A DNA stretch of 64,000 nucleotides from the NCBI GenBank assembly GCA_029227815.1, contig CP118523.1, positions 1,116,001-1,180,000 of the forward strand, written 5' to 3'. This document shows, in pieces, positions 8,173-38,624 of the stretch (position 1 is its first letter; each line of letters begins with the position of its first letter). The position numbers and the translations under genes are program-made. The notes under the pieces are model-generated. The model was not told the origin of the DNA. It saw only the letters and a list, made by a program, of their open reading frames with translations, and did no database searches. This stretch comes from Clostridiaceae bacterium M8S5 (GTDB lineage: Bacteria; Bacillota; Clostridia; Tissierellales; MCWD3).

Positions 8173-8227
8173 TTTTCTATTAGACAAGCTAAAACAATAA
8201 CCAAACAACCAGCAAACTAATTAAGAT

Positions 8228-8471
8228 GCATATCCGTTTTTCTGGAGAAGCGACTTTAGAAGACTTGTTACTTCAATGCTTTTACATAATAAAAGGAACA
8301 GGACACCAATTAAAAAGAATTAGGATATGCTTCCACCAATAGGTAAAGAATCATCTAAAACTAATGCTTATAAACTTACAAAGCTTGACCGTAGTGATAA
8401 GATACCCAAAATCAACTTGATGCTTAACAAATAAAGTATTGAGTAACTACTAAGACCTGTAAAGATAAACT
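8228..8471 (+). ncRNA. Orphan copy of the type II structured RNA module
   Basis: GCATATCC (8228-8235) pairs perfectly with GGATATGC (8323-8330), enclosing CGTTTTTCTGGAGAAGCGAC and a GCTTTTA loop also found at 29271-29385 and 29648-29761 inside the tail locus. The inner stem sequence differs from those copies but still pairs in part (GACTTGTTACTT with AAGGAACAGGAC). The downstream part, about 8421-8471, matches the shared 3' box (AACAAATAAAGT..GAGTAAC..AAAGATAA). There is no coding frame. It lies between two convergent gene groups. Strand is inferred from the copies in the tail operon. Confidence 0.55.
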
Positions 8472-8567
8472 AAGATTTCACGTTACTAAAATAGAAGTAT
8501 ACGTAAAACAAAAAAATGACCATATAATTATTACAATGGTCATTTTTGATTAAATTCTAATATAAAA

Positions 8568-19046: not shown

Positions 19047-19049
19047 GAT

Positions 19050-20622: not shown

Positions 20623-20636
20623 GGGAGAGGTGAAAT

Positions 20637-21056
20637 ATGAACATATACTTATCAGTTAATAATAGAGAACAAGTGATTAAATTGCCAGTACTCCCTAACG
20701 AATTTATGGTTAATACAGGTATGAAAAATGAAAGCTACGACACTATAAGGCAAGGTGAAATAAAATTAATAGGACTTGAGAATCTTAAAACTATAAAAAT
20801 TCAATCCTTCTTTCCAAGTAAAAGATACAACTTTCTAAGGGATAATAAATATAAAGGTTGGAGATACGTAGAGATGATAGAAGGTTGGAAGAGTAGGAGA
20901 GTTCCTATCAGGCTAATAATCACCAATACTCCAATAAATATGCCATGCACAATAGAAGGGTTTGAATATGGTATAAAAGATGGTACTAACGATATATATT
21001 ACACATTGACATTAAGTGAATTTAAGTTTATCAAACTAAAGAAAAAGGGGGTATAG
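20637..21056 (+). CDS. XkdP-like baseplate/tail protein without LysM, cassette 1
   Basis: A 139-residue protein matching the N-terminal part of XkdP-type proteins (MNIYLSVNNREQVIKLPVLP, KTIKIQSFFPS, PINMPCTIEGFEYGI). PBSX XkdP has a LysM wall-binding domain after this; here it is missing, as in many clostridial tail loci. It lies between tape measure and hub genes and likely joins tube to baseplate. AGGGAGAGG precedes the ATG. The paralogue at 35370 is about 65 percent similar by eye. Confidence 0.75.
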   Translation: MNIYLSVNNREQVIKLPVLPNEFMVNTGMKNESYDTIRQGEIKLIGLENLKTIKIQSFFPSKRYNFLRDNKYKGWRYVEMIEGWKSRRVPIRLIITNTPINMPCTIEGFEYGIKDGTNDIYYTLTLSEFKFIKLKKKGV

Positions 21057-21060
21057 TATC

Positions 21061-22023
21061 ATGCATCAATTACACTGTATAACAGATGATGTGCAAACAG
21101 ATATGACACCTCTAGTTGGAAATGTGAGTTGGAGAAGCAATATCAATGAACTTGGTGATCAACTTAATTTTGATATAGCATTTAATGATGATAGATACTT
21201 TCCAGTGATACCTGTAAAAGTCGGGAGTGTAATCATACTAAAAAATGAACAGGAAATATTTAGAGGTATAGTAGTATCTAGCCAGAGAAGTGGTAGAGGT
21301 GCAATAAGCTATACTTGTTTTGATTATGCGTTTTATCTTAATAAAAGTAAAGAGATATATCAATTTAATAAAACACCTGCTAAAGATGCAATACAAAAAA
21401 TACTCAGTGACTTTAAGATACCTATAGGGAAAATTGCTCCAATCAGTACCGTGATAGATAAGATATACAACAATATGGCTATAAGTGAGATATTAAAAGA
21501 TGTTATAAAAATATCTGAAAAAGAAAAAGGCATCAAATATAGAATGGAAATGAGAGAAGGCAAAATATATATTGAAAATCAAGAAGAGCTAATGATAAAA
21601 GCATCATTTAGATTAGCTAGTAATCTCATGAGTCATGCAGCAATAACTTCTATATCAAATCCTAGTAGAAAAATATCAATGGAAGATATGAAAAACAGTA
21701 TAAAAGTAATAGTAAACAAAAAAACTGTTGAGGTAAAAAATCAGAAGTTAATAGACGAATATGGACTATTGCAAGAGGTACTAACAGAAGATAGCGATAA
21801 AGCAAAGGCAAAAAATATTGCAGAAAAGATGCTAAAAGATATAGGGAAATTAATGGAGGAAAACTCTATAGAAATGATAGGAGATGACAGTGCAAGATCA
21901 GGAAGATTGATAGAAATAGATGAGCCTATCACAGGGATGAAAGGCAAATATTTGATAAAAGACGTAAATCATACACTTAGAAATGGTATTCATCGAATGC
22001 AGGTAGGATTAGGGGTGAAATAA
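21061..22023 (+). CDS. xkdQ: XkdQ-like baseplate hub protein, cassette 1
   Basis: The 320-residue protein starts HQLHCITDDVQTDMTPLVGNVSW and contains the beta-barrel hub fold of gp27/XkdQ proteins (FRGIVVSSQRSGRGAISYTCFDYAFYLNKSKE), ending MKGKYLIKDVNHTLRNGIHRMQVGLGVK. It would form the trimeric hub that links the six-fold tube to the three-fold spike. Stop and next start overlap (TAATGG). AAAGGGGGTATAGTATC precedes the ATG. Confidence 0.85.
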   Translation: MHQLHCITDDVQTDMTPLVGNVSWRSNINELGDQLNFDIAFNDDRYFPVIPVKVGSVIILKNEQEIFRGIVVSSQRSGRGAISYTCFDYAFYLNKSKEIYQFNKTPAKDAIQKILSDFKIPIGKIAPISTVIDKIYNNMAISEILKDVIKISEKEKGIKYRMEMREGKIYIENQEELMIKASFRLASNLMSHAAITSISNPSRKISMEDMKNSIKVIVNKKTVEVKNQKLIDEYGLLQEVLTEDSDKAKAKNIAEKMLKDIGKLMEENSIEMIGDDSARSGRLIEIDEPITGMKGKYLIKDVNHTLRNGIHRMQVGLGVK

Positions 22024-22385
22024 TGGAAGGAATAAGCGAGTTTGCAAAACTATTTAAAGAAAGAGACAATAAACCTTATCTAGGTCCACAGTTAGGCACT
22101 GTACAAAGCAAATTTCCCGATATTAAGATATCATTAGGAGATAATGTATTATTGACTAAAAAGAACTTGTATTTTTCATCTCATATAACCAAACATTTTG
22201 AAAGAGAATTCGAAATAGAAGCTAAAGAAGTAAAATTCGAGCAAGAAATGCCTAGCATCACTAAATATCAAAGCAAAGGCAAAATAAAATACAAAGATGT
22301 ATTGAAAAAAGGAGATAAAGTCATACTCATACCTACAACAGATGAGCAAAAATACTATGTAATAGATAAGGTGGTGAAAGTATGA
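22023..22385 (+). CDS. XkdR-like DUF2577 protein, cassette 1
   Basis: A 120-residue protein starting MEGISEFAKLFKERDNKPYLGPQLG, the DUF2577/XkdR pattern. Proteins in this place are thought to contribute to the spike or central baseplate. Unlike its three paralogues in cassette 2, it lacks the central insert with the H-x-H motif. It overlaps both neighbours by a few bases, so it is translationally coupled. Confidence 0.75.
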   Translation: MEGISEFAKLFKERDNKPYLGPQLGTVQSKFPDIKISLGDNVLLTKKNLYFSSHITKHFEREFEIEAKEVKFEQEMPSITKYQSKGKIKYKDVLKKGDKVILIPTTDEQKYYVIDKVVKV

Positions 22386-22828
22386 TGCTACCTAAAATAA
22401 CACAACTTAAATTCAAAGAACAAAAAAGCAAGAACTTACTTAAAATGGGTAAGTCTTTTTTATTTGATTTTGATAAAGGTGATTTTGTCGTTAAAGATGG
22501 AAGACTAGTAGAAGCAAACGATGTAGAATCTCTAAAAGTTTGGATAGAAAAAATACTCAGAACCCAAAGAGAAAAATATCTGGTGTATAAAAGAAGTGAT
22601 GAAGAAGAATACGGTGTAATATTAGAGGATTTAATAATTGGAAATAATTATTCACATTCATTTATAGAATCTGAGATAAAACGAGAGATTAATTCAGCAC
22701 TTATGAGAAATACAATAATATCTTCTGTGTCAGATTTCAAAATAGAGAAAAACAATACAAAACTCAAAGTATATTTTAAAGTGAATTTGATAAATGGCAA
22801 GAGTTTTGACGAGGAGGTGACTGTGTGA
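22382..22828 (+). CDS. xkdS: XkdS-like baseplate wedge protein (DUF2634), cassette 1
   Basis: This 148-residue protein has the features of the DUF2634/gp25-like wedge family: FLFDFDKGDFVVKDGR near the start, LKVWIEKILRTQREKYLVY in the middle and EIKREINSALMRNTIISSVSDF, where the E-I-x-R-E-I pattern resembles the gp25 EPR-type contact. It should connect sheath to baseplate. The ATG overlaps the stop of the previous gene (ATGATG). Confidence 0.85.
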   Translation: MMLPKITQLKFKEQKSKNLLKMGKSFLFDFDKGDFVVKDGRLVEANDVESLKVWIEKILRTQREKYLVYKRSDEEEYGVILEDLIIGNNYSHSFIESEIKREINSALMRNTIISSVSDFKIEKNNTKLKVYFKVNLINGKSFDEEVTV

Positions 22829-23877
22829 CAAACAATGAAATAAAAGATCGAATGTTATCTAAAATAGATGATGAATATGATACATCAGAAGGAACTTTTT
22901 TTAACGACATAATAGGAGCATTAGCTATAGAGCTAGAATCTGCCTACGAAAATTTAGAAGAGATATTGGAACAAGGTTTTGTAGAATCAGCTGAGGGGAA
23001 ATATCTCGATAAAAAAGTCAAAGAAAAAGGTCTGCTTAGAAAGCCACCTATAAAAGCTAAAGCTACTATAGTTATTTCTGGAGTTGAAGGAGCTATGGTT
23101 GAACAAGGAATGAAAGTATCAAGTGATATTGTAAATTTTACAATTATGGAAAGTAAAAGAATAGATAGTAGCGGGAATGTCACAGTGTTAGCAGAATGTG
23201 ACCAAGAAGGCTCAGTAGGAAATCTTCATAAAGGAGCTATAAAATACTTTCCGATTACTATTCAAGGATTAGATAGCGTAACAAATCCAGAGAGTATCTC
23301 AAATGGATACGACGGGGAAGTAGATGATGAGCTAAGAAAGAGATACTATGATAAAGTAAGAATACCTGCAACATCAGGCAATAAAGCCCATTATAGCAAC
23401 TGGGCTATGGAAGTACCGGGTGTTGGAGATGTAAGAGTTATTCCACTATGGGATGGAAAAGGAACAGTGAAAGTAGTAATAATAGACTCAGAAAAAACTG
23501 GAGCAGAAGAAGCTTTAGTAAACATGGTGCATAAACATATAGAAAAAAACAGACCAATAGGAGCTACAGTTACTACAATATCTGCAACAGAGATTCCTGT
23601 AAATATAGGGGTTAGGCTAATAATTGATGAGCTTAATTTCACAAAAGAGCAGGTAAAAGAAACAATATCTGAAAATATACGATTACATTTAAAAGAAATC
23701 GCATTCAAAGATAATATAGTCAGCCATGCTAGATTGGGTAGTATAATTCTTCAATCTGGTGGTGTAAAAGACTATAAAAACCTACTTGTGAATGACAAAA
23801 ATGCAGGGTTAGAAAATCCTAACATAGATATTGGATATGAAGAGGTTGCAGTAGTAGGGGTGATTACAATTGAATAA
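22825..23877 (+). CDS. xkdT: Baseplate J-like wedge protein, cassette 1
   Basis: GTG start at 22825, after GAGGAGGTGAC and overlapping the XkdS stop. The 350-residue protein has the Baseplate_J core: EGTFFNDIIGALAIELESAYENLEEIL, LRKRYYDKVRIPATSGNKAHYSNWAMEVPGVGDVRVIPLWDG and GTVKVVIIDSE. It is the gp6/gpJ-like wedge component that forms the baseplate ring. The next gene overlaps its end by 8 bases. Confidence 0.92.
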   Translation: MTNNEIKDRMLSKIDDEYDTSEGTFFNDIIGALAIELESAYENLEEILEQGFVESAEGKYLDKKVKEKGLLRKPPIKAKATIVISGVEGAMVEQGMKVSSDIVNFTIMESKRIDSSGNVTVLAECDQEGSVGNLHKGAIKYFPITIQGLDSVTNPESISNGYDGEVDDELRKRYYDKVRIPATSGNKAHYSNWAMEVPGVGDVRVIPLWDGKGTVKVVIIDSEKTGAEEALVNMVHKHIEKNRPIGATVTTISATEIPVNIGVRLIIDELNFTKEQVKETISENIRLHLKEIAFKDNIVSHARLGSIILQSGGVKDYKNLLVNDKNAGLENPNIDIGYEEVAVVGVITIE

Positions 23878-25066
23878 GCTACTACAATATTTGCCTAGCT
23901 ACTACAAAACAAGCAAAGTTGCAACAAGTTTGACAGATTCACAATACGAAGAAATAAAAGAACTCAGTTATAGAATACGCAAAGCATTAGAGCAGTTAGC
24001 AATAGACACAGCTGATTATACACTTGATAGATGGGAAAAAGAATATGGCTTGACAATAAATAAATACAAGACAGTAGAGCAAAGAAGAAGCGCTATAAAA
24101 GGAAAGCTCATAGGACAAGGAACATTTACAAAAACAAAAGCATTAGAACTAGCTAATGCTTATAGCAAAGATGGACTAGCTGAGTATGTAAATACAGAAC
24201 ATGAGTATGAATTCAAGACTAGACATAGCGTAGATGATCTTACAAGTCTTAAAAATATGATAGCTTCATTTGAAGAATTCAAACCAGCACACATAAAGCA
24301 TATAGTAGGTTTGTTTGTAGAAAAAGAGATAGGGCCAAAAGTTGATGAATTACTACTAACAGTACAGTTTGAAGTAGATATGACAAAAGAAGACGACCAT
24401 AAATTCATATATCATCTAGCAGGCACAATGCTAGGTTATAGTGAGTTCAATCCAGATACTATAGCAGAGAGATATACAAGCGGTGCTGGATTAATGAATG
24501 GTACTAAAACTTTAGATGGTGAAAACAAAGATGGAATGTACTACTATATACCACATGCAAATGTCATAGAAGATACAGCAATGCAAAAATATGATATCAA
24601 GTCAAAGCTTCATTATAAAAAAGAGACAAATATGAGATACAATTTTTCATATGACATAGGGCTTAACTATGAAGTAGCCGATGATATCAATTATAGATAT
24701 GATGTAAAAGAATTTGCAGAAAGAAACCAAATGTATAAAGTTATAAAGCAAATTCATTTTACAGATATCATCCTTGAGCATGAAAAATCAGAAAAACTCA
24801 GATATACAAAACCACAAAATATGAATATAATACACGATAAAAACGAAGAATTGAATGTGAACTTAGAGGTGTTAGGTATATCGGAATTTAGTCCTGATAA
24901 GATATCAATAGATTATACAGATGGTGCATTAAATCTAGAGGGACTAAAAACACTAAATGGGAAAAATCCTCAAGAAGCAGATTACTATGCTAGAAATTCG
25001 GAAGAGCTTAGTATTAAAAAATATGTAGATAAAAAATTAAAAGAGATAGATATTATAAGGAGGTAA
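23870..25066 (+). CDS. XkdU-like baseplate protein with long repeat extension, cassette 1
   Basis: TTG start at 23870 with GTAGGGGTG upstream. Residues 1-180 match the XkdU/YmfQ family (LPSYYKTSKVATSL, ELAIDTADYTLDRWEKEYGL, IASFEEFKPAHIKHI), which is normally about 180-200 residues; the cassette 2 copy is 176. Here about 220 more residues follow, with an internal repeat: GYSEFNPDTIAERYTSGAG and GISEFSPDKISIDYTDGAL, each followed by KTL(D/N)G(E/K)N. The extension may anchor the fibres encoded next, which have no N-terminal module in common with the cassette 2 fibres. Confidence 0.8.
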   Translation: MNKLLQYLPSYYKTSKVATSLTDSQYEEIKELSYRIRKALEQLAIDTADYTLDRWEKEYGLTINKYKTVEQRRSAIKGKLIGQGTFTKTKALELANAYSKDGLAEYVNTEHEYEFKTRHSVDDLTSLKNMIASFEEFKPAHIKHIVGLFVEKEIGPKVDELLLTVQFEVDMTKEDDHKFIYHLAGTMLGYSEFNPDTIAERYTSGAGLMNGTKTLDGENKDGMYYYIPHANVIEDTAMQKYDIKSKLHYKKETNMRYNFSYDIGLNYEVADDINYRYDVKEFAERNQMYKVIKQIHFTDIILEHEKSEKLRYTKPQNMNIIHDKNEELNVNLEVLGISEFSPDKISIDYTDGALNLEGLKTLNGKNPQEADYYARNSEELSIKKYVDKKLKEIDIIRR

Positions 25067-25072
25067 CATACA

Positions 25073-25462
25073 ATGGCAAGTATTAAAACAAATATAGGAA
25101 GAGAGAAATTAGCAAAGGCACACTCAGGAACGAAAGCATTACCAGAAATCACACACATAGCATTTGGAAAAGGTGGAACATTCCTTACAGAAGAAAGACA
25201 TGCACCAAAAGAATTGACAGGAGCTGAGACGACTCTATTTGATGAAGTGATAAGAAAAGAACCAGTAAAAAGTTTTCCAGATAGCTATACAGCAAGATAC
25301 ACAGCAACAATAGATGCAGATGTGGACAAGCTAGTAGGAGTAGATTTAAACGAAGCATGTTTAATAGATACAGAAGGTGACATGGTAGCAATCAAGACAT
25401 TTACAAACAAAGGCTTAGAAGAAAAAACAGTAATCACATTTGACTATGATGCTAAGTTTTAA
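25073..25462 (+). CDS. Tail-collar fibre-type protein
   Basis: A 129-residue protein with the N-terminal pattern of phage tail-collar fibre proteins (ITHIAFGKGG, then RYTATIDADVDKLVGVDLNEACLIDTEGDMVAIKTF). In other tails this domain is the attachment head of a long fibre; here it stands alone as a small protein, so it may be an adaptor. AAGGAGGTAAC precedes the ATG. No copy exists in cassette 2. Confidence 0.75.
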   Translation: MASIKTNIGREKLAKAHSGTKALPEITHIAFGKGGTFLTEERHAPKELTGAETTLFDEVIRKEPVKSFPDSYTARYTATIDADVDKLVGVDLNEACLIDTEGDMVAIKTFTNKGLEEKTVITFDYDAKF

Positions 25463-25476
25463 GTGGAGGTGAAAAC

Positions 25477-25824
25477 ATGATAATAGATTCATTAAAATTG
25501 AAGCCCTTAAAAGGGCTTCAGTATAAAGATATAAAAAGGATAGTACAAGGTTTTAAGACAACCACACCAGACCATGCAAACTATTTCAATCAAGCACTAC
25601 AGCTCTTAATAGACAATGACGTGACACTAGACAATCTTACAAACGAAGCAGTAAGAGAGTTGAAGTTAAACCAGATGGATATAGCAATAGAGCTAGAGAC
25701 ATTAAAAGGAGCATTGTTAACAGGAGTAGATTCAAATATCATGGTTCAGACATTTGAAGAGCTAGAGGGTGATTTGAGATTTGGTGTTTATAATAAGCCA
25801 GAAAAAACACTGGATATTATTTAG
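25477..25824 (+). CDS. Small helical tail-locus protein of unknown function
   Basis: The 115-residue product (LKLKPLKGLQYKDIKRIVQGF, then NYFNQALQLLIDNDVTLDNL) looks helical and acidic. It is not recognised. It lies between two fibre-type genes with an AGTGGAGGTG ribosome site, so it may be a fibre assembly chaperone or adaptor. Codons 9-14 contain a perfect hairpin in the mRNA (25500-25519). Confidence 0.5.
   Translation: MIIDSLKLKPLKGLQYKDIKRIVQGFKTTTPDHANYFNQALQLLIDNDVTLDNLTNEAVRELKLNQMDIAIELETLKGALLTGVDSNIMVQTFEELEGDLRFGVYNKPEKTLDII
25500..25519 (+). promoter_or_regulatory. Strong hairpin inside the start of a coding region
   Basis: GAAGCCCTT (25500-25508) pairs perfectly with AAGGGCTTC (25511-25519) across a two-base gap, 24 bases after the start codon of the 115-residue gene. 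It could slow translation or act as an mRNA processing site; it could also be codon chance. Confidence 0.4.
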
Positions 25825-25840
25825 AAAGGAAGTGAAGTAA

Positions 25841-28066
25841 ATGGCGATAAGTAATCAATATAGGGATACTATAATTAATGTTTTTACGAAAAATTATAGT
25901 AATTATAAACAATCATATGGTGCAGATGATTTAGATTATGGAGTATATTCTGATGGTAGGGAGATTTTTAGTGGTGAACGTACATTAAAAATAAATAGTA
26001 ATGGTTCTAGAAATAATAACTGGACAAGTGGATTTAATGTGACAGGAGTAGCTAACGCTCCATACTTAGCAATGGGAAGTGTATATAAAGACAATGTAAC
26101 AGTATTTTTATCTCATCCAAGCAATGGATACAATTATGGATATATAAAAGATACATTTTTATCTTCGCCTACAACTATTTCTCCTGTGACTACAATTGAT
26201 TACAGAAGTAAATTTGGAAACAATATATTAGCAAATCAAAACAATTTTTGGATAGGACATGGGTTAGAAGATGGCCTTTGGATTATGGAATATGTAAGTG
26301 GAGGTAGTAGAGGTACTGTCGCATATAATGGATACACATATACTCAAAAATTAACAGGTACTTGTAGAGTTAAGCTAAAAAAATACGATTACAAAAATCT
26401 TAATTTGTTAAATGAAATTACTGTAAATTTGCCAAATCTTTATTTTCAAACAGGTGAAGATTCAGTAATAGGAGGATTTGAGTTAGCGGGTGTTTTTGTC
26501 ATTAATTTGACAGGAAACCAATTTGCAATTATTTGTTTAGATGATGGCAGTATTGCAGGGACATTCAACCTACCGATTAGCAGTTTAAGTGGTAATCAAC
26601 CGCTTACATTTTCATACCTACATGGTGTAATAGCAGGAGATGGTGGGGATAACGATGGTGATAGTTTTATAATGATTAAACTAAACGATTTCCACAACCA
26701 CCCAGAACTAATAAGAACAAACGAAATACCTAAAGTACCTAGTAGCTTAAGCCCAACAGGATTTACAAATAGCCCAGAAACAATATCGACTCTTACACCT
26801 ACACTAAGCTGGGTATTTGCTGATGATGACGAGGGAGATGTCCAAGGTAAATTACAAGTGCAAATATTTAAAGCATTAGACAATTCCTTAGCACATGATA
26901 CAGGAGCATTAGTGAATGGAAGTGCTAGCTATACAGTACCACAAGGAACTCTTGAACCAGATACAAAGTATTACTGGAAAGTTAGAGTTTGGGATAACAA
27001 TGATGATGTTAGTGAATACACTACAAACAGATACTTTGTAACAACAAAAGCACCTAGCATCAATGTAGTGTCACCAATTGGATCAGATTCAGTACCAGTG
27101 AAAGGTATATCAGTAATTCCAAGATTAGAATGGACATATTCAGATGATGAAAATCATGGACAAACACATATACAGGTTGTAATCAAAGATAGTGATGCTT
27201 ATATAGTACATGACACTGGCAAGATAGCGTGTACAGATAAATATTACAATGTACCTGCTGGTGTGTTATATCAGAGTGAAAAATATAGCTGGGCAGTAAC
27301 TGTATGGGATAGTACAGATATGAAAAATACTCCTATGAATCCACAATATTTTATCACAAACTATACACCACAGAAACCAACAGCACCAATGCCTATAGAT
27401 AACTATAGAGTGCCACTTAGACCTACTTTTGAGTTTACAGCTCCTATAGATGTTGAAGATGATAAACTCCACTTTAAGCTCAACTTATCTCTAAGTGATA
27501 CTTTTGAAAGTACCATGATAAAAGACAGTGGATTAGACACTACAGGTTGGGAATATCAAGATGGTGATTCATGGGTAGCTATTCCAGCAGAAGGATTAGC
27601 ATCAGAGTTCTATGGACGTAGAGTTAGGTATACATTTACTGAGGATTTAACAGAGAAGAAGACATATTACTGGAGAGTAACAGGATATAACAGAGGATTA
27701 GGTAGTCCAAAACAGTATGTATACAGTGATACAAAACGTATAAGAGTAGGAGATAGGATAGTATATCAAGAAACACCTTATACTACAACAGACAGAGCAG
27801 AGAGAATACTAGCAAAGATATTCATGAATACAGAAGCTGATGGAGTTAAACCAGTATCATATACAATAGAAGTATGTAACAATGCACTAGATGAAAATCC
27901 AACATGGGAAGATATGACACAGTCAGTAAAACAAAAGAAGTATCATGTGTTTGCAAACCAATCCAAAACAGCAACAGACTGGGCAGTATCATACAAACTG
28001 ACAGTGATGGCTAATGATACGATGGGGAAAATTAGTGTAGAATCTGTGAGTATATGCTTTGATTAG
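25841..28066 (+). CDS. Receptor-binding fibre/adhesin with fibronectin-like domains, cassette 1
   Basis: The 741-residue protein has a unique N-terminal part of about 300 residues rich in Asn, Gly, Ser and Tyr, then three fibronectin type III-like domains at about 303-400, 404-508 and 510-640, each with a TPTLSW or PRLEW opening and a YYWKVRVWD, YSWAVTVWD or YYWRVTGYN strand, and a C-terminal domain. It is the last structural gene of cassette 1 and the best candidate for its target-recognition protein. The N-terminal part gives no family match by eye. AGAAAGGAAGTG precedes the ATG. Confidence 0.7.
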   Translation: MAISNQYRDTIINVFTKNYSNYKQSYGADDLDYGVYSDGREIFSGERTLKINSNGSRNNNWTSGFNVTGVANAPYLAMGSVYKDNVTVFLSHPSNGYNYGYIKDTFLSSPTTISPVTTIDYRSKFGNNILANQNNFWIGHGLEDGLWIMEYVSGGSRGTVAYNGYTYTQKLTGTCRVKLKKYDYKNLNLLNEITVNLPNLYFQTGEDSVIGGFELAGVFVINLTGNQFAIICLDDGSIAGTFNLPISSLSGNQPLTFSYLHGVIAGDGGDNDGDSFIMIKLNDFHNHPELIRTNEIPKVPSSLSPTGFTNSPETISTLTPTLSWVFADDDEGDVQGKLQVQIFKALDNSLAHDTGALVNGSASYTVPQGTLEPDTKYYWKVRVWDNNDDVSEYTTNRYFVTTKAPSINVVSPIGSDSVPVKGISVIPRLEWTYSDDENHGQTHIQVVIKDSDAYIVHDTGKIACTDKYYNVPAGVLYQSEKYSWAVTVWDSTDMKNTPMNPQYFITNYTPQKPTAPMPIDNYRVPLRPTFEFTAPIDVEDDKLHFKLNLSLSDTFESTMIKDSGLDTTGWEYQDGDSWVAIPAEGLASEFYGRRVRYTFTEDLTEKKTYYWRVTGYNRGLGSPKQYVYSDTKRIRVGDRIVYQETPYTTTDRAERILAKIFMNTEADGVKPVSYTIEVCNNALDENPTWEDMTQSVKQKKYHVFANQSKTATDWAVSYKLTVMANDTMGKISVESVSICFD

Positions 28067-28204: not shown

Positions 28205-28707
28205 GGTCATACTTCTGAGTGTGGCTCTCTATTTTTTGTAAGGAAGCGTTAAAAAACATCATTCTAACTCGGAGAAGCATCTGTTTTTTTGATTGAATAA
28301 ATGATAAAACAGCTACTTCAATGTCGTTTACGAATGATGTTCTTTAGCTTCTAATAGGTTTATTGATTATTCTATTTTAGGGTAAATCTTCGGAGAGAGT
28401 AGGAAAAACTCATTGATTATAATAATTCATTGGAGAAGGGGAATCAAAGATAATCTTTGCGGTGCAGTAGAGAAGCTGTTTCTAACTATTTTAAGTAGAA
28501 GCGTTGAATAAACAGCTCCTCAAATTTACCTACAAGAAACATCTTTTAATTCCCCTAGTGATATTGTTGGTTGTTATTTTTAGGGTAGTTTATTGGGTCA
28601 TAAATTTAAACTCTAAAATCACATATTAAACACAAAAAGTCAATTTAATGGAGCAAAAGCTGAACAAATAAAGTTATGAGTAACCACAAGAACCACAAAG
28701 ATAATCT
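28205..28707 (+). ncRNA. Structured RNA module type I, copy A
   Basis: No coding frame. Helices include AACATCATTC (28255-28264) with GAATGATGTT (28332-28341); an inner stem GAAGCATCTGTTTT/AAAACAGCTACTTC; GAGAAGCTGTTT (about 28470) with AAACAGCTCCTC (about 28510); a CAAAGA/TCTTTG hairpin at 28445-28459; and GGTAAAT with ATTTACC. The first two have changed sequence but kept pairing in copy B. Single-stranded parts such as CTAACTCGGAGA and TCAATGTCGTTTACG are unchanged. It ends with a box (28656-28707, AAGCTGAACAAATAAAGT..ACCACAAG..CACAAAGATAATCT) shared by all modules. Strand is taken from the tail operon. Confidence 0.65.
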
Positions 28708-28749
28708 AAAAAATATATGAGTAATCAACAAAATAACAAAGAAGAATTA

Positions 28750-29233
28750 GGGTCATGCTTTGGAGTGTGGCTATTTACTTTTTGTGTGGAAGCGTTAAAT
28801 AACATTTGCCTAACTCGGAGAGAGCAGTGTTTCTTTAATTATATTAGTGATGATGAAACACTACTCTCAATGTCGTTTACGGCAAATATTATTTAGCATC
28901 TAGTAGGTTTGTTGGTCGTTCATTCTGTAGGGTAAAGCTTTGGAGTGAGGAAAGATACTCATTGTAAATAGTGATTCATTGGTGAAGGGGAATCAAAGAT
29001 AATCTTTGAGGTGCAGTAGAGAAGCTGTTTCTAACTATTTTAGTAGAAGCGTTGAAGAAACAGCTCCTCAAATTTACCTGCAAGAAATATCTTTTGATTC
29101 CCTAAGGCTTTATTGGTTAGATATTTAGGGCAATAAATTAGGGTAAAACAATTAAAGTTTTACCTGAGCAAGAAAACAAAAAAAGCTGAACCGATAAAGC
29201 TATGAGTTACCACAAGACCCACAAGGGTAATCT
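28750..29233 (+). ncRNA. Structured RNA module type I, copy B
   Basis: A second module of about 480 bases, parallel to copy A over its whole length with a period near 545. The main stem here is AACATTTGCC (28801-28810) with GGCAAATATT (28881-28890) and the inner stem GAGAGCAGTGTTTC with GAAACACTACTCTC; both differ from copy A at several paired positions at once, which is compensatory change. GGGAATCAAAGAT with ATCTTTTGATTCCC, and the AAGCTGTTT/AAACAGCT stem, are also kept. The 3' box is 29182-29233. Confidence 0.65.
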
Positions 29234-29270
29234 TTAATAATTGACATTAATAACCAATAAGCAACTAAAG

Positions 29271-29611
29271 AAGCATATCCCGTTTTTCTGGAGAAGCGAC
29301 TTTAGAGTGCTTATTTCTACAACGCTTTTATACAATCATTAGAAATAAGTGCTATATGGAGTCCGTAAGAAATTAGGATATGCTTACACCAATGAGTAAG
29401 GAGTCGCCTAGAACTATCCTACCAAAGAATTACCCTAAAAATAAGATATCAAAAACAACTTGAAGCTGAGATTGTTTTTCGACCGCGACATTGGAAGTTG
29501 TAATTTAACATTAAGTGGGTCGAAAAATTACAGCTTACTCCGAGCAAGAAAAACAATCGAAAAGCTGAACAAATAAAGTAACGAGTGACCACAGACCCAC
29601 AAAGATAATCT
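29271..29611 (+). ncRNA. Structured RNA module type II, copy 1, with extra hairpin
   Basis: AAGCATATCC (29271-29280) pairs with GGATATGCTT (29376-29385), enclosing TTTTTCTGGAGAAGCGACTT and a perfect 13-bp stem, AGTGCTTATTTCT (29306-29318) with AGAAATAAGTGCT (29341-29353), whose loop has CGCTTTTATA. Between this and the 3' box (29560-29611) sits another hairpin closed by GATTGTTTTTC (29470-29480) and GAAAAACAATC (29548-29558). The first part matches 8228-8330 and 29648-29761. Confidence 0.65.
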
Positions 29612-29647
29612 AAAGTAGACAATATAAATACCAACAAACTAACAAAG

Positions 29648-29806
29648 AAGCATATCGGTTTTTCTGGAGAAGCGACTTTAGAGTGCTTATTTCTGAAACG
29701 CTTTTATATGATTATTAGAAATAAGTGCTATACGGAGTCCGTAAGAAATTAGGATATACTTTAACCTATAGGTGATGAATAACCATAAGACTCACAAAGA
29801 TAATCT
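29648..29806 (+). ncRNA. Structured RNA module type II, copy 2
   Basis: AAGCATATC (29648-29656) pairs with GATATACTT with one mismatch; the 13-bp stem AGTGCTTATTTCT (29682-29694) with AGAAATAAGTGCT (29717-29729) is perfect, while its loop differs from copy 1. A shortened 3' box (CATAAGACTCACAAAGATAATCT) ends at 29806, 40 bases before the next gene. Confidence 0.65.
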
Positions 29807-29845
29807 GAAAAAACCATAACGTATAGTCTTTAAAAGGAGGAAAAC

Positions 29846-31051: not shown

Positions 31052-31474
31052 ATGAAACTAAAAGATATAAAAAAAGCTGTAATAGATAAACTAACAGCTA
31101 GTTTTCCTGAGTTTGATGTATTTGGAGAAAATAAGAGTAGTGAAGCAAATAAATCAAAATTTATCGTAGAACTTAATCCTATATATATGGGGGTTGAAAG
31201 TAGTTATCATAGGCGACAATACGTGAATATAACTATTAGAATCCACACTCAAAATAAAACAAATGATGAGTATATAGATGTAGTGGACAAGCTATATAAG
31301 ATTATTGATGCAACAATCAAGGTTAATGATAGAGAACTTTATATAAATAAAATAAGGATGATAAAGGAAAACGATATCTTAAAGTGTTCATTCAATATTA
31401 ATTATGAGGATGAAATAGAAAGAAATGAAAATTATGAGTTGATGAAAGAATTAAATTTTAAGGAGGAATATTAA
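31052..31474 (+). CDS. Tail terminator-like protein, cassette 2
   Basis: A 140-residue paralogue of the gene at 16455: same length, LKDIKKAVIDKLTASFPEF at the start and INYEDEIERNENYELMKELN at the end. By position it caps the tube below the sheath gene. It follows the same GAAAGGAGGAAGGGGTGA ribosome region, and its stop overlaps the sheath start. Confidence 0.7.
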   Translation: MKLKDIKKAVIDKLTASFPEFDVFGENKSSEANKSKFIVELNPIYMGVESSYHRRQYVNITIRIHTQNKTNDEYIDVVDKLYKIIDATIKVNDRELYINKIRMIKENDILKCSFNINYEDEIERNENYELMKELNFKEEY

Positions 31475-32619
31475 TGGGGTTAGGATTACCAAAAATCGAA
31501 ATCAATTTTAAAACACAAGGAGTTACAGCAATAGAAAGAAGTGCGAAAGGAATAGTTGCGTTAATTTTAAAACATCATGTTGATGTTAAAAAGGAAAATA
31601 GTGAAGAAATCAAAGTAAAAGGAGATCATATTACAGGTACATCTTTTGAATATAAATCAATAGATGAAATAGGTACTTACTTAGTAAAAGACTCAACAGA
31701 TAAAGCTGATGATTGGGGAGTTCAGAACTTAAAATATATCAAACAAGCATTTTTAGGAACTCCTAGTAAGGTAATTGTTGAATATCTCACTACATCAGAG
31801 AGTATAAATGATGGACTAGGTAGATTAAAAACAAAAAAATGGAATTATTTAGCTATACCAGAAATCATGAGAGAAGAATCAACAGTAGCTTCATGGGTTA
31901 GTGGTGAAAGAACTAATAACAAGAAGACATTTAAAGTAGTTTTACCAAACGAAGGACTTGGTGGAAACTGTGAAGGTATCATAAATTTCTGTGCTAGTAA
32001 TATAAAAACTAAAGACTCAGATGTGTTTAGTGGAGCAGAGTATGCACCTAGAATAGCTGGTATTTTAGCAGGACTACCATTTACAAGAAGTGCTACTTAC
32101 TATGATTTAGGAGAAGTAGTAAGTGTGGACGCATTTGATGATTCAAATAAAGAAATCAACGAAGGCAAGCTAATATTAATCAACGACGGTGAAAAAGTCA
32201 AAATAGCAAGAGGTGTGAATGCTTATACACAAACTACAGTTACAAAAGGTGAATCATTCAAAAAGATAAAGATAGTAGATGCAGTTGATTTAATGACAGA
32301 TGATATAAGAGATACATTCAATAACTACTATGTAGGTAAGATAACTAACTCATATGATCACAAAGTATTATTCTTATCAGCTATAAATGCATACTTTAAA
32401 GCATTAGAGAAACAAGAAATTTTAGATCCATCATATGATAATAAAGCACAAATAGATATCGAAGCACAAAAGTTATATCTTCAAGGAAAAGGTCTAGACG
32501 TGAGTACAATGAAAGAGCAACAAATAAAAGAGTACAATACAGGAAGTCAGGTATTTATAAGTGCTAAAGTTAAATTGCTAGACGCAATGGAAGACTTAAT
32601 GATGGAAATATCAATGTAG
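31474..32619 (+). CDS. xkdK: Contractile tail sheath protein, cassette 2
   Basis: A 381-residue sheath protein with the same N-terminal handle as the cassette 1 sheath, a longer and different segment at about 33-75, and an almost identical C-terminal half from GILAGLPFTRSATYYDLGEV on. The polymer-forming ends are thus the same in both sheaths while the exposed middle differs. It should form the contractile sheath of a second particle, or mixed sheaths with the first. Confidence 0.92.
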   Translation: MGLGLPKIEINFKTQGVTAIERSAKGIVALILKHHVDVKKENSEEIKVKGDHITGTSFEYKSIDEIGTYLVKDSTDKADDWGVQNLKYIKQAFLGTPSKVIVEYLTTSESINDGLGRLKTKKWNYLAIPEIMREESTVASWVSGERTNNKKTFKVVLPNEGLGGNCEGIINFCASNIKTKDSDVFSGAEYAPRIAGILAGLPFTRSATYYDLGEVVSVDAFDDSNKEINEGKLILINDGEKVKIARGVNAYTQTTVTKGESFKKIKIVDAVDLMTDDIRDTFNNYYVGKITNSYDHKVLFLSAINAYFKALEKQEILDPSYDNKAQIDIEAQKLYLQGKGLDVSTMKEQQIKEYNTGSQVFISAKVKLLDAMEDLMMEISM

Positions 32620-32631
32620 GAGGTAGATTAG

Positions 32632-33075
32632 ATGAATAAATTATCAGGAAATAGAGTGATAAACGGTACATGGGGAGAAATATGGTTAGAAGGCGAAAAA
32701 ATAAGTGAATTAACAGGATTAGATGCTAAAATCACACTTAAAAAAGAAGACGTAAGTATGTGTGGAGTATTAGCAAAAGAATCTAAGATAACAGGCTGGG
32801 AAGGAAAAGGAACACTAAAGCTACACAAGGTGAATTCAAGAATGGCTCAGTTATTAGGAGATAACATAAAGCAAGGAAAAGACGTAAGATTTACAATAGT
32901 TGCAAAGCTTGCGGACCCTGATACAATAGGAAATCAATCAGAGAGAGTTGCACTAAAAGGAGTAAGCTTTGATGACCTTACAGTAATGAACTTTGAGATG
33001 AAGGCACTAGGAAAAGTAGAGTGTCCATTTACATTTACAGACTATGATTTCATGGATTTAATAAGTCCAGAATAG
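32632..33075 (+). CDS. xkdM: Tail tube protein, cassette 2
   Basis: A 147-residue XkdM-type tube protein, identical to the cassette 1 copy except Ser for Lys three residues from the end. The DNA, including the spacer GGAGGTAGATTAG before the start, is nearly the same too. Such identity next to clearly diverged genes suggests gene conversion or a recent exchange. Confidence 0.92.
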   Translation: MNKLSGNRVINGTWGEIWLEGEKISELTGLDAKITLKKEDVSMCGVLAKESKITGWEGKGTLKLHKVNSRMAQLLGDNIKQGKDVRFTIVAKLADPDTIGNQSERVALKGVSFDDLTVMNFEMKALGKVECPFTFTDYDFMDLISPE

Positions 33076-33086
33076 GGGGAAGATAG

Positions 33087-33482
33087 ATGAGTACTTTAGA
33101 TTTATTGTTACAATTAGACGAAAGCAAACTTAAAAAGCCTAGCAAAGAAGTAGAGATGAAAAGATTATCAGAGCTATTGGGAGAAAAAATAATATTTAAG
33201 GTGGAAGCTCTAACACCTAAAAAAATGGATGAAATTCAAACAATGAGCACAGACGAAGAAAAAGAGACAATGAACATGGGTGAATTACAGCTATTAGCAG
33301 TAATGGAAGGTGTAAAAGAGCCAAACTTTAAATCAAAAGAACTAATGGATAAATTTGGAGTATATACCCCTAAAGATTTAATTAGAAAGATATTACTTCC
33401 AGGTGAGATAATCACTCTTTATGGTATCGTAGGCGATTTAAGTGGATTTGATGGTGGAGCAATAGAAGAAGTAAAAAACTAA
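33087..33482 (+). CDS. xkdN: Tail assembly chaperone, zero-frame product, cassette 2
   Basis: A 131-residue XkdN-like protein with only a few substitutions from the gene at 18469 (for example Glu for Gln at 12, Ile for Met at 35). The slippery heptamer A AAA AAC is at 33473-33479 just before the stop, as in cassette 1. Confidence 0.9.
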   Translation: MSTLDLLLQLDESKLKKPSKEVEMKRLSELLGEKIIFKVEALTPKKMDEIQTMSTDEEKETMNMGELQLLAVMEGVKEPNFKSKELMDKFGVYTPKDLIRKILLPGEIITLYGIVGDLSGFDGGAIEEVKN

Positions 33483-33652
33483 TAAATACAGATGGATTAA
33501 CACAGATGATGTATTACTATTGGAATACAAAGGGTATAAGACCATCTGTACTTTACAACATGCCAAAAGGAGAGTTGTTAGTGGTAACAGCTTTTTATGA
33601 ACAAGAACTAAAAGACAAAGAAGAACTTTTAAAAGCAAGAGGGATAGAATAA
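33479..33652 (+). CDS. -1 frameshift extension of the chaperone, cassette 2
   Basis: In the -1 frame after 33473-33479 the sequence reads LINTDGLTQMMYYYWNTKGI and continues to KDKEELLKARGIE with TAA at 33650-33652. The first about 45 residues match the cassette 1 extension, then the tails differ. Conservation of a frame without its own start supports programmed frameshifting. Confidence 0.85.
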   Translation, partial: LINTDGLTQMMYYYWNTKGIRPSVLYNMPKGELLVVTAFYEQELKDKEELLKARGIE

Positions 33653-33667
33653 ACTACATCATATATT

Positions 33668-33709
33668 AGGGGTTGTTATAAATGTATAATACATTTAAGC
33701 AACCCCTTT
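33668..33709 (+). terminator. Attenuator-like hairpin before the tape measure gene, cassette 2
   Basis: AGGGGTTG (33668-33675) pairs with CAACCCCT (33700-33707), with AAATGTA/TACATTT inside, then TT and AAAATT. The sequence is unrelated to the cassette 1 hairpin but the position is the same. Confidence 0.65.
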
Positions 33710-33734
33710 AAAATTGTATAAAGGTGGTGAAAAT

Positions 33735-35357
33735 ATGAGTAGTGAAGTAGAAAAAAAATTAAAAGCTCGTAGTGATACTATAAATGAGCAAAGCATAGCT
33801 GGTAAGAATAGTATAGCAGAACAGCCAAGATATTTTAAAGATGGAGTTGATGACTTTGTAAATTTATATACTCAAAATGCTAGATTTAAGTATTTTTTTA
33901 GAGAAGTTCACAGTGCTCCTAAATCTGTTTACAACATGAATGCTGAAGTATATACACATAAGATAAATAATCAAATTGAAAAAAGAAGAAAATTACTTTC
34001 AGAGAAGGCAAGAATAGATAATAAAATAAAAAACGCTAATAGTTATGCTGAAGAAAAATTATTAAAGAAAGATTTAGAAAATATACAGCAAAAAATAAGA
34101 AGTAATAAATCGATGACTAGAGAACTTTCAAGTAATAAGGTGAAAGGGAAACCTGTTAATAGTTTCTATAAAAAAATGATGAACAGAGCACGCAAATTTA
34201 ATAGCAAGTTGTGGAAAAATTATAACATATATAAAGCATGGGCTATAACAGGAGTCGAAAATTTTGTAGATAAATCAATAAAAAAAATACCTTATATTGG
34301 TGAAAAAATACTGTCAGGAGGAAAGTATCTAGGCAAGAACTTACAAAAGATATTACCCGGCGTAGATATAGGAGTGAATAGTTATGTACTTGCAACTGAT
34401 CCAAGCAATTTTAAAAGGTCGTTAGCGGGATTAGATATGCTAGGATATGCGGGATTTTTAGCAGGTCCAGAAGTAGGGGTACCAGTTAAAGCTATAACAG
34501 GATATTTAAACTTTTTCGGAGCATTAGGTTACGATATCGCAAGTTCTTTTGATTCAACAAGGTTTATTGCAGAATGGTTAGATGATAATTCACCAGATAT
34601 TAAAAGTGTTACGGATAAATACATTACACCTGAAAATATTATAGGGATATCTGCAGCCGCTAATATGGCTATGCCGGGTGCTTTGGATGCAGGAATATGG
34701 ATAGCTAAGCAGATGGAGAATAACGGATTAGATTCTCAAGCTATGAAAAAGAATATAGCGAAAACTGATAGTATACCTGAAATAATAAATCAAAGCAAAA
34801 CAACACCAAAATTAAAAACGCCAAAAAAAACAACAATAAAAAATAGTAAAGCTACGATAAATCCATCAAATATAACTGAATTCAATGGCAAGTATTATTA
34901 TCATGAAAAACCACTACCTAAGATTGATTTATCAAATATATCTCCAAAACAAGATTCGATTGATTTTAGGGGAATAAATATACCAAAATTACCACCAAAA
35001 GAATTAAAAGAAATACCTATAAAGCAACCTATACCAAGATTAAAAAGGAGATACGATAGGTTAGAGCCTTTAAAAATGACACCTATAAAGCTAAATAATA
35101 ATTTGAAACCATATATTATGCCGTATGATAGCTCAAACATCAATATCTATAATAAAAAAGATGGCAAAGGAAGACCTGGATTTTTAAAGAGGTTGTTTGG
35201 TACATCAAACAAAAACAAATCTACAAACAACACAAGTAATAATAACAGCAATAGAAACAGTATCATCTTAAACGTGAATGGTGCTAATTTATCTACTGAT
35301 CAAATAGTAAATGAAATCGTCACCAATTTAAATATTGCAATGGGGAATACTGCGTAA
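33735..35357 (+). CDS. Small tape measure protein, cassette 2
   Basis: Start chosen at ATG 33735 after AAAGGTGGTG (540 residues). It begins with a coiled-coil part (MSSEVEKKLKARSDTINEQ, then IEKRRKLLSEKARIDNKI), has a hydrophobic segment near 230-270 (FKRSLAGLDMLGYAGFLAGP), a Pro/Lys-rich part at about 360-470, and the tape measure-type end SIILNVNGANLSTDQIVNEIV. It is about 40 residues longer than the cassette 1 protein, so its tail may be slightly longer. Overall similarity to that protein is limited to the core and the end. Confidence 0.75.
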   Translation: MSSEVEKKLKARSDTINEQSIAGKNSIAEQPRYFKDGVDDFVNLYTQNARFKYFFREVHSAPKSVYNMNAEVYTHKINNQIEKRRKLLSEKARIDNKIKNANSYAEEKLLKKDLENIQQKIRSNKSMTRELSSNKVKGKPVNSFYKKMMNRARKFNSKLWKNYNIYKAWAITGVENFVDKSIKKIPYIGEKILSGGKYLGKNLQKILPGVDIGVNSYVLATDPSNFKRSLAGLDMLGYAGFLAGPEVGVPVKAITGYLNFFGALGYDIASSFDSTRFIAEWLDDNSPDIKSVTDKYITPENIIGISAAANMAMPGALDAGIWIAKQMENNGLDSQAMKKNIAKTDSIPEIINQSKTTPKLKTPKKTTIKNSKATINPSNITEFNGKYYYHEKPLPKIDLSNISPKQDSIDFRGINIPKLPPKELKEIPIKQPIPRLKRRYDRLEPLKMTPIKLNNNLKPYIMPYDSSNINIYNKKDGKGRPGFLKRLFGTSNKNKSTNNTSNNNSNRNSIILNVNGANLSTDQIVNEIVTNLNIAMGNTA

Positions 35358-35369
35358 AGGAGGGGGATA

Positions 35370-35789
35370 ATGGATATATTTTTGTCAATTAACAACAGAG
35401 AAGAAGTAATAAAATTGCCAGTTCTTCCAACTGAGTTCAAAACTAATTCATCAATGAAAAACCAAAGCTATGAAACTATCTCACAGGGAGAAATAAAGCT
35501 AATTGGAACAGAGTCGTTAAAAACTATTTCCATACAATCATTCTTTCCTAATAAAGAGTATGAATTTGCAAGAGATGACAAATATAAAGGTTGGGAATAT
35601 GTAGAGTTAATTGAAGATTGGAAGAAAAAAAGGATACCAATAAGACTGACTATAACAAATTCACTAATTAATATGCCATGTACAATAGAAAGTTTTGAGT
35701 ATGGATTGCAAGATGGCAGTGGAGATATATACTATACACTTTCTTTAAGTGAGTTTAAGTATATAGACCTCGATCAAAAGGAGGTATAG
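35370..35789 (+). CDS. XkdP-like baseplate/tail protein, cassette 2
   Basis: A 139-residue paralogue of the gene at 20637, same length, with FLSINNREEVIKLPVLPTEF and INMPCTIESFEYGL. It lacks a LysM domain too. AAAGGAGGGGG precedes the ATG. Confidence 0.75.
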   Translation: MDIFLSINNREEVIKLPVLPTEFKTNSSMKNQSYETISQGEIKLIGTESLKTISIQSFFPNKEYEFARDDKYKGWEYVELIEDWKKKRIPIRLTITNSLINMPCTIESFEYGLQDGSGDIYYTLSLSEFKYIDLDQKEV

Positions 35790-35792
35790 TAT

Positions 35793-36761
35793 ATGCATCA
35801 ATTATATTGTATAACAGATAATGTCCAGACTAATATTACGCCTTTAGTAGGAAATATAAGTTGGAGTAGTGATGTAAGTCAATTAGGAGATAGACTAAAT
35901 TTTAGTATAGCATTTAATGATAGCAGATTTTTCCCAGAGATTCCAGTGGAGGTTGGAAGTAGTATAGTTCTAAAAAACAAGGATGAAATATTTAGAGGAA
36001 TAGTAGTGACAAGTTCACAAAATGGTAGAGGTTCAATAAGCTATACTTGTCTAGACTACGCATTTTATCTTAACAAATCCAAAGAAATATATCAGTTTAA
36101 CAAAATATCAGCAAAAAGTGCACTAGAAACGATATTTGGTGATTTTGGTATTTCTATAGGGAGAGTAGCATCAATAGATACAGTGATTAATAAGATATAC
36201 AACAACAAAGTTATAGCTCAAATAATAAAAGATATACTAACAACAGCAGAAAATGAGAGTGGCATAAAGTACACAATGGAGATGAGACAAAATAAAATAT
36301 ATATAGAAAAGCAAGAAGACTTAGTAATAAAGGCTACATTTAAGCTGTCAAAAGATGCACAAGAGATGGATGTATCTAAATCAATATCAAATCCCGTAAG
36401 AAATATCACTATAGAGAATATGAAGAACAGTGTCAAGATACTAATAGATGAAAACAAACAAATTGAGAAGAAAGATTCAAAGCTAATAGGAAAATATGGA
36501 CTACTACAAGAAGTCATAGTAGCAAAAAATGAAGAAGATTCAAAAGCAAAGAATATAGCCGAAAAAGTACTCAAAGACCTAGGAAAAGTCATGGAAGATA
36601 ATACACTTTCAATGATAGGTAATGATGCTGTAAGAGCTGGTAGGTTAATGGAGATACAAGAGCCAGTAACAGGTATGAGTGGCAAATATCTAATAAAAAA
36701 CGTCAAACATACACTGAAAAACGGTATACATCTAATGCAACTAGGATTAGGGGTGAAGTAA
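35793..36761 (+). CDS. xkdQ: XkdQ-like baseplate hub protein, cassette 2
   Basis: A 322-residue paralogue of the gene at 21061 (HQLYCITDNVQTNITPLVGN, IFRGIVVTSSQNGRGSISYT, MSGKYLIKNVKHTLKNGIH). It should form the baseplate hub of the second particle. It is followed with no gap by the first of three spike-type genes. Confidence 0.85.
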   Translation: MHQLYCITDNVQTNITPLVGNISWSSDVSQLGDRLNFSIAFNDSRFFPEIPVEVGSSIVLKNKDEIFRGIVVTSSQNGRGSISYTCLDYAFYLNKSKEIYQFNKISAKSALETIFGDFGISIGRVASIDTVINKIYNNKVIAQIIKDILTTAENESGIKYTMEMRQNKIYIEKQEDLVIKATFKLSKDAQEMDVSKSISNPVRNITIENMKNSVKILIDENKQIEKKDSKLIGKYGLLQEVIVAKNEEDSKAKNIAEKVLKDLGKVMEDNTLSMIGNDAVRAGRLMEIQEPVTGMSGKYLIKNVKHTLKNGIHLMQLGLGVK

Positions 36762-37214
36762 ATGCAGGGAATAAACGAGTTAGCCAAGTTGTTTAAAGAA
36801 AGAGACAATAACCCTTATATAGGTCCTTTAATAGGAGTAGTTGTAGAGCCATTACCAGATATACAAATTGCTTTAGGAGAAAAGATATTGCTTACTAAAG
36901 AGAATCTAGTTGTAGATTTGATGTTTAAAGAGCATGAGAGAAGCTTTGAGATATCTGGGGATATAAAATTAACTCAGGATGAACCTTGCGAAACAGAAGA
37001 GGGAACTTTTACTGAAAAAACTACAAACCCAAATGCACCGACACCGCATCCACATCATCATAAAGTACCAGAGATAACATTAGACACACAATATGAAGGT
37101 AAAGGGGTCATAAAATTTAGTGATATGAAGCTTGAAAAAGAAGACCTAGTTTTATTGGTTCCAAGTAGTGATGAACAAACTTATTATCTTATAGATAAGG
37201 TAAAGCAGTTGTAA
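36762..37214 (+). CDS. XkdR-like DUF2577 protein 1 with His-rich tip motif, cassette 2
   Basis: The 150-residue protein keeps the family start (MQGINELAKLFKERDNNPYIGP) and end (DLVLLVPSSDEQTYYLIDKV). An insert around residues 75-105 contains TPHPHHHK (His96, 98, 99, 100). H-x-H motifs of this kind bind iron at the tip of P2-type tail spikes, so this may be a membrane-piercing tip. First of three tandem paralogues. Confidence 0.75.
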   Translation: MQGINELAKLFKERDNNPYIGPLIGVVVEPLPDIQIALGEKILLTKENLVVDLMFKEHERSFEISGDIKLTQDEPCETEEGTFTEKTTNPNAPTPHPHHHKVPEITLDTQYEGKGVIKFSDMKLEKEDLVLLVPSSDEQTYYLIDKVKQL

Positions 37215-37242
37215 TATAAGAAAGTGAAATGAGGGAAGAAAA

Positions 37243-37704
37243 GTGAATGGGATTAATATACTAGCTAAACTTTTTAGAGAAAGAGACAATATCGAATACA
37301 TGGGACCACTAATAGGTGAAGTGACTAATGCTCCACCAGAAATAAAGATAACAATAGGAGATAAAATAGTACTAACTAAAGAAAATCTCTTTTTCTCATC
37401 ACATATACTTGATGACTATGAAAGAGAATTTGAAATAGAAGATAGTGATGACAACACTATCAAGTTAGAACAAAAAGATGCAGGAACAACAGATGAAGGA
37501 GTAGTACCTGAGTCAGATACAACATATAGCACATATAGTCACAAACACGATATAAAAAAAATAAATGTAGCAACAAGTTTTACAAGTAATGGGGTAATAA
37601 AATTTACTAATACGATTGCAGATGGAGACAAAGTTATATTAATACCTACAGCCAATGAAATGGTATATTATGTAGTTGATAAAGCTGTTTCATTGAACTC
37701 ATAG
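37243..37704 (+). CDS. XkdR-like DUF2577 protein 2 with H-x-H motif, cassette 2
   Basis: GTG start at 37243 after GAGGGAAG. The 153-residue protein begins MNGINILAKLFRERDNIEYMGP and has SHKHDI with His100 and His102 in the same insert. It diverges from its neighbours at about half of the residues outside the ends, so the triplication is not recent. Confidence 0.75.
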   Translation: MNGINILAKLFRERDNIEYMGPLIGEVTNAPPEIKITIGDKIVLTKENLFFSSHILDDYEREFEIEDSDDNTIKLEQKDAGTTDEGVVPESDTTYSTYSHKHDIKKINVATSFTSNGVIKFTNTIADGDKVILIPTANEMVYYVVDKAVSLNS

Positions 37705-37719
37705 TTAGGGGTGATAATC

Positions 37720-38160
37720 GTGGAAGGCATGAGCAGTTTAGCAAAACTATTTAAGGAAAGAGAAAATATATCATATTTAGGACCACAAATTGGGGAGATA
37801 ATAATGCCACCAAATGATATAAAAATAGCTCTTGGAGATAAAATAGTTCTAGAAAAAGAAAACCTTATATTCTCATCATATATACTAAATAGTTATTCTA
37901 GACAATTTGAAATAAAAAGTGATGAAAACAATATAACATTTGAACAAGATAATCCGGGAGAAGCATTTAACAAAGAAGTTTCAGGTGCTACTCCACCAAT
38001 ACATTTGCATAAAATTAGTAAAATGAACATTTCCACAAACTATGAAAGTACAGGAACAATAACGTTCACAGATACACTAAAAAAAGGTGATTTAGTGCTA
38101 TTGATTCCAACTACTGATGAACAAAAATACTACGTTATAGATAAGGTGGTGAAAGAATAA
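37720..38160 (+). CDS. XkdR-like DUF2577 protein 3 with H-x-H motif, cassette 2
   Basis: I place the start at GTG 37720, giving VEGMSSLAKLFKERENISYL with AGGGGTG 7 bases upstream; the GTG at 37711 is possible but would add three residues and lie within that site. The 146-residue protein has PPIHLHKIS with His95 and His97 in the insert, and ends like the cassette 1 protein (LIPTTDEQKYYVIDKVVKE). Third of the tandem set; followed directly by XkdS. Confidence 0.75.
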   Translation: MEGMSSLAKLFKERENISYLGPQIGEIIMPPNDIKIALGDKIVLEKENLIFSSYILNSYSRQFEIKSDENNITFEQDNPGEAFNKEVSGATPPIHLHKISKMNISTNYESTGTITFTDTLKKGDLVLLIPTTDEQKYYVIDKVVKE

Positions 38161-38604
38161 ATGCTACCCAAAATTGCAGAGCTAAAATTTAAAACAAATG
38201 AACAAAAAGAGATGGATATGAGAGGCAGATCATTTTTATTTGATTTTGAAAAAGGAGAATTTGTATTAAGAAATGGAAACACAGTACTTGCAGATGAGAT
38301 AGAAAGTATACAAATATGGATAGAGAAAGTACTTTTGACCGAGAAGTATAAATACAACATCTACAAAAGAGATGATGGCAAAGAATATGGAGTAATGCTG
38401 CAAGATTTAATAATAGGCACAAATTACCCAAGAGCTTTCGTAGAGGCTGAAATACGAAGAGAGATAAAAAATGAACTCACAAAACATCCTAGAATATTAT
38501 CTATATCAAATTTTAGTATAGATAAAAGAAATCCTGAGCTATATGTTTCATTTAAAGTAAACTTAGTTAGTGGTAATAATTTTGATAAAAAGATGATTAT
38601 ATAA
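38161..38604 (+). CDS. xkdS: XkdS-like baseplate wedge protein (DUF2634), cassette 2
   Basis: A 147-residue paralogue of the gene at 22382: FLFDFEKGEFVLRNGN, IQIWIEKVLLTEKYKYNIY, EIRREIKNELTKHPRILSIS. It starts at the base after the preceding stop. Confidence 0.85.
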   Translation: MLPKIAELKFKTNEQKEMDMRGRSFLFDFEKGEFVLRNGNTVLADEIESIQIWIEKVLLTEKYKYNIYKRDDGKEYGVMLQDLIIGTNYPRAFVEAEIRREIKNELTKHPRILSISNFSIDKRNPELYVSFKVNLVSGNNFDKKMII

Positions 38605-38624
38605 ACCTAGGGAGGTGAAGTAAT

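Follow-up and report, generated by a model that had tools for sequence, protein, structure and literature searches.

A modular two-hairpin intergenic repeat with covarying stems in two related bacteria

REP/BIME elements are palindromic units that occur in inverted pairs at the 3' ends of genes, with RAYT transposases. The BOX repeats of Streptococcus pneumoniae are modular with a variable number of modules, form extensive hairpins, are intergenic with an enrichment between convergent genes, and are found in one lineage (PMC3049150). In the Bacillus cereus group, the repeats bcr1-bcr18 are group-specific and intergenic; some are MITE-like, and some form conserved RNA structures and are expressed as part of UTRs (PMC3446304 and references therein). 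The two-hairpin repeat described here, with about 350 bases per unit and scattered between genes in two related bacteria, is a family previously unlisted. It is equally modular, hairpin-rich, intergenic, convergent-biased, and lineage-limited as BOX (PMC3049150), a likeness of kind only, no sequence relation being implied; unlike BOX, it has two large hairpins per arm, conserved internal loops, and head-to-head arms, and its stems are replaced compensatorily between subfamilies and species. Like the bcr repeats it is group-specific and intergenic. In length and architecture it presumably differs from them. With REP/BIME it shares inverted palindromic pairs at gene 3' ends, and RAYT-like Y1 genes are present in both genomes, but its units exceed theirs several-fold in length, and none was found next to a RAYT gene. 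Being lineage-restricted, intergenic, modular, and convergent-biased, with no long open reading frame inside its units, it is best read as a new family of the BOX/bcr/REP kind, homology not being claimed. The most probable interpretation (roughly 0.7) is that it is a genus-specific, non-autonomous interspersed repeat, that is, a miniature mobile element, with two large hairpins per arm.

The window analyzed is a stretch of 64,000 nucleotides, positions 1116001-1180000 of a host genome of 4.68 Mb in one contig (G000); the sister species (G001) is the only other member of the genus in the comparison set. The original prediction of two near-identical hairpin modules and a third some 20 kb away was correct (Table 1), but its copy number of three is far exceeded. 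The hairpin at 29271 (HP1 of arm II) has 26 blastn matches in the host genome, about 20 of them strong, the adjacent HP2 with its box has 30, and the neighboring "type I" unit has 41. Around 40 intergenic places in this genome carry the repeat, which thus occurs as many dispersed intergenic copies within one lineage.

An arm opens with HP1, a hairpin of about 120 nt whose terminal loop is CAACGCTTYTA. A linker of some 60-80 nt, which includes ..CACAAAGCATTACCCTAAA, connects it to HP2, a hairpin of about 115 nt in which the internal loop CGACATTG lies opposite CTCCGAG or, in a minority, CGCAGGG. The three arm-II HP1 modules of the window have the feet GCATATCC/GGATATGC, together with CTGGAGAAGCGACTTTAGAG and a CAACGCTTTTA loop. 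Two arms often stand head to head (HP2'-HP1' then HP1-HP2), spacer box S2 joins successive arms in chains, and the number of modules varies per locus from a lone HP1 up to chains like HP2'HP1'HP2HP1HP2HP1. Numerous copies are broken, either truncated or without HP2. The order in the window is HP2'HP1' (I), HP2'HP1' (I), HP1-HP2-HP1 (II). Type I had been described as a distinct kind of module; its minus-strand reading, however, gives HP1, linker, and HP2, as type II does, and the two types are one design on opposite strands. When one is inverted, the outer tails of the two arms look similar by eye. The shared box containing AACAAATAAAGT..AAAGATAA does recur, near 28658, 29184, 29565, 29775, and 8430, but, with type I running on the opposite strand, it does not lie 3' of that type.

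Table 1. Parts of the two-hairpin repeat in the window (window coordinates unless a contig position is given).
Feature	Position	Strand	Evidence
HP1, arm II (type II), first copy	29264..29401	+	nhmmer 130.7 bits; blastn query; fold
HP2, arm II, internal loop CGACATTG / CTCCGAG	29453..29583	+	nhmmer; covariance model 1145458-1145572; covariation
HP1, arm II, second copy	29637..29777	+	nhmmer
HP1, arm I (type I), copy b	28973..29107	-	nhmmer
HP2, arm I, copy b	28775..28914	-	nhmmer; covariance model 1144785-1144904
HP1, arm I, copy a	28424..28562	-	nhmmer
HP2, arm I, copy a	28228..28365	-	nhmmer; covariance model 1144239-1144355, genome's best
Spacer box S2 (AACAAATAAAGTTATGAGTAACCACAAGAACCACAAAGATAATC)	28658..28709	+	contig 1144658-1144709
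Spacer box S2	29184..29233	+	contig 1145184-1145233
Spacer box S2 after HP2	29565..29614	+	repeats D4, D9
Partial spacer box S2 behind last HP1	29775..29809	+	repeat D9
HP1, arm II, distant copy, variant subtype	8216..8348	+	nhmmer 107.5 bits
Scar of deleted HP2, then spacer box S2	8417..8475	+	sequence (row 1124217+)

At 8.2 kb an arm-II HP1 stands alone; its HP2 has been lost, with the scar CTTGATGCTTAACAAATAAAG remaining near 8417-8436. The inner stem of this HP1 differs in sequence, as had been noted, but pairs only imperfectly, the inner 3' strand being that of another subtype (GGAACAGGACACC). On contig 71 of the sister species G001 (L117), the terminal loops of both arm-II HP1 copies, at about 915-990 and 3826-3905, have an insert of about 70-80 bp. 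A different repeat, about 150 bp long and unrelated to the first, occupies window positions 7990-8140 (G000 1123961-1124170). It has at least 24 matches at 91-100% identity in the host, some of them tandem (for example around 643.4-643.9 kb and 991 kb), and none in the sister species or in 39 further relatives. In the window an identical 27-nt palindrome, AGAAGCTGTTAGAAATAACAGCTTCTT, stands on each side of it, which looks like the outcome of a terminator-hairpin duplication.

The predicted fold of the two-hairpin repeat is clearly under selection. Intact copies fold better than shuffled sequences, with z about -7.2 for two other copies in the host genome and -3.8 at 29.3 kb in the window, while the 8.2 kb copy reaches only -2.4. 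In an HP2 set of 30 sequences from both species, 96.7% of the cells in 29 pairs are standard pairs, compensatory changes on both sides are seen in 21 of the 29, and the covariation score is 0.572, versus 0.220 for shuffled alignments and at most 0.11 with one strand slid; because the sequences share ancestry, the counts do not represent independent events. The stem columns of HP2 average 73% identity versus about 97% in the 5' internal loop, and the inner stem of HP1 exists in many sequence versions able to pair. Stems that change in step and keep pairing fit a small mobile repeat that must fold better than they fit a single special RNA gene. Contiguous helices contain 69 G.U cells versus 16 A.C cells, an excess that points to the HP1-to-HP2 strand as the folding strand. 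This is likely, but not proven, to be the sense strand; strand specificity is not firm because a wider tally over per-subfamily structures is near parity (110 G.T versus 87 A.C).

A genome-wide family with variable yet pairing stems and common flanking boxes had been proposed and is borne out, but the shared 3' tail and the discrete small RNAs that went with it are not. Strong covariation together with conserved unpaired bases would be expected of a family of structured small RNAs acting in trans; however, tens of copies lie in unrelated contexts, numerous copies are broken, and there is neither promoter evidence nor an Rfam relative, which makes such a family very improbable and leaves a discrete or trans-acting small RNA unsupported. 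Rfam 15 covariance models, run at gathering and permissive thresholds, gave no match to the repeat near a gathering score. The only Rfam match in the window is an FMN riboswitch at 11539-11666 on the minus strand (RF00050, 118 bits).

The two-hairpin repeat is restricted to one genus. The covariance-model search that had been recommended for the whole genome and its relatives found about 45 HP2 matches in the sister species, which is richer in repeats than the host, and none convincing outside the genus. By blastn, arm I occurs at least 11 times in the sister species, many of whose contigs end in repeat copies; across the two species, each type of hairpin is represented by some 65-70 longer copies. 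No match stood out in about 640 other genomes (249 of the order and 391 sampled from the class), and phage and plasmid records gave none. Two lone marginal matches outside the genus (E 0.003 and 0.001) are unconvincing, and apparent matches in other genomes (L088, L104-L107) look like chance, mostly lying within protein genes. An exact-pattern scan gave 5 unrelated matches in genome contigs, about the number expected by chance, and 0 in viral contigs. In trees, arm I of both species groups together, as does arm II, so the two-arm design predates the species. The inner clusters are largely species-specific, with copies grouping by species and not by site; since the species split, copies have multiplied or been homogenized within each species.

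Both species carry the repeat at about five of the same intergenic sites, versus about one expected by chance on a rough estimate, and the proteins flanking these sites are only about 60-84% identical. Five G000/G001 locus pairs share flanking genes, two of them with both flanks conserved, and the site downstream of leuB has the same arm order in both species. That the same sites are filled in two species with such diverged flanks hints that copies have been retained and may therefore have a function instead of being purely parasitic.

Gene context was assessed for 32 loci with clear neighbors, using approximate ORF-based gene calls and a length-weighted background from 400 kb of the host genome. 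Convergent gaps account for 19 of the 32 loci versus 17% expected (p about 1e-7), divergent gaps for one versus 27% expected (p 0.001), and gaps between tandem genes for 12; copies are nearly absent upstream of genes. Type II is co-directional with the upstream gene in six of seven tandem loci, while the orientation of type I relative to genes is mixed. For some REP/BIME and BOX copies a role at gene 3' ends has been proposed. If the present repeats were domesticated in this way, selection would keep the hairpins to block convergent read-through or to protect mRNA 3' ends, as the convergent bias, the depletion upstream of genes, the direction of type II in tandem loci, and the sites common to both species, such as that downstream of leuB, could suggest. 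Such domestication is nevertheless improbable: on the sense strand the hairpins are not followed by a run of T, type I is not consistently oriented, numerous copies are truncated or without HP2, and a parasitic repeat would also show such a context (PMC3049150).

Outer arm-I tails of the sister species often abut the intrinsic-terminator hairpin of the opposing gene; a strong hairpin is present in 10 of 42 arm-I tails versus 2.3% in shuffles, and by eye in most complete tails. This suggests that insertion prefers intrinsic terminators as a target, yet convergent 3' regions hold terminators anyway. A tie to tail loci is not supported, since only one such locus has the repeat and most loci adjoin unrelated genes, commonly at convergent 3' ends. 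The window has two paralogous contractile-tail operons (sheath, baseplate J), at 16455-28066 and 31052-46629. An amidase lies beside the window repeats; the sister species also has a nearby copy, on the amidase's other side, and at least one contractile-tail set near the same amidase (G001 contig 71). A TPR-like protein family adjoins several repeats (G000 1595598-1596300 and 512436-512931; G001 contig 74 88879-90752), but as a partner of the repeat it was rejected, being near three loci and missing from most.

The suggestion that the modules are mobile is sustained in part: dispersal implies past movement, but no empty site or target-site duplication could be shown for the repeats, and neither a linked mobilizing enzyme nor a matching autonomous element was found. 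One specific version of the mobile-element interpretation is that the units are very large REP/BIME-like elements that a Y1 transposase of the IS200/RAYT type mobilizes in the form of folded single-stranded DNA. The hairpin composites are head to head, as in BIMEs, both species encode RAYT-like Y1 proteins, and, judged by GC skew, 16 of 19 loci have type II on the leading strand, although this bias may merely follow gene direction. A Y1 link is unlikely, as no repeat copy lies within 1.5 kb of the Y1 genes found in either genome, so that copies flank a RAYT gene in neither, and the hairpins, at about 110-140 nt, are far longer than REP.

If the repeat is a miniature mobile element, copies may have spread by transposition or by recombination between copies. 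The HP1-to-HP2 single strand would fold, and a putative transposase or host RNA- or DNA-binding protein would read the conserved loops while the pairing stems drift freely; in read-through transcripts from neighboring genes, the hairpins would land in 3' UTRs. A fuller proposal, tentative and less likely than not, is that the arm is a functional, structured, genus-limited motif with a dedicated binding partner for its conserved internal and terminal loops. This protein would be either a transposase that works on folded single strands or one that binds RNA, with insertion aimed at intrinsic terminators, occupied sites that persist in both species, and stems that co-evolve.

The two-hairpin repeat is an unusually well-documented addition to the interspersed structured repeats of bacteria, with two species, some 65-70 longer copies per hairpin type, and strong covariation. 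The sites occupied in both species permit a test of whether copies are retained for a purpose. Since the stems vary freely and the loops do not, it can be asked directly what reads such repeats.
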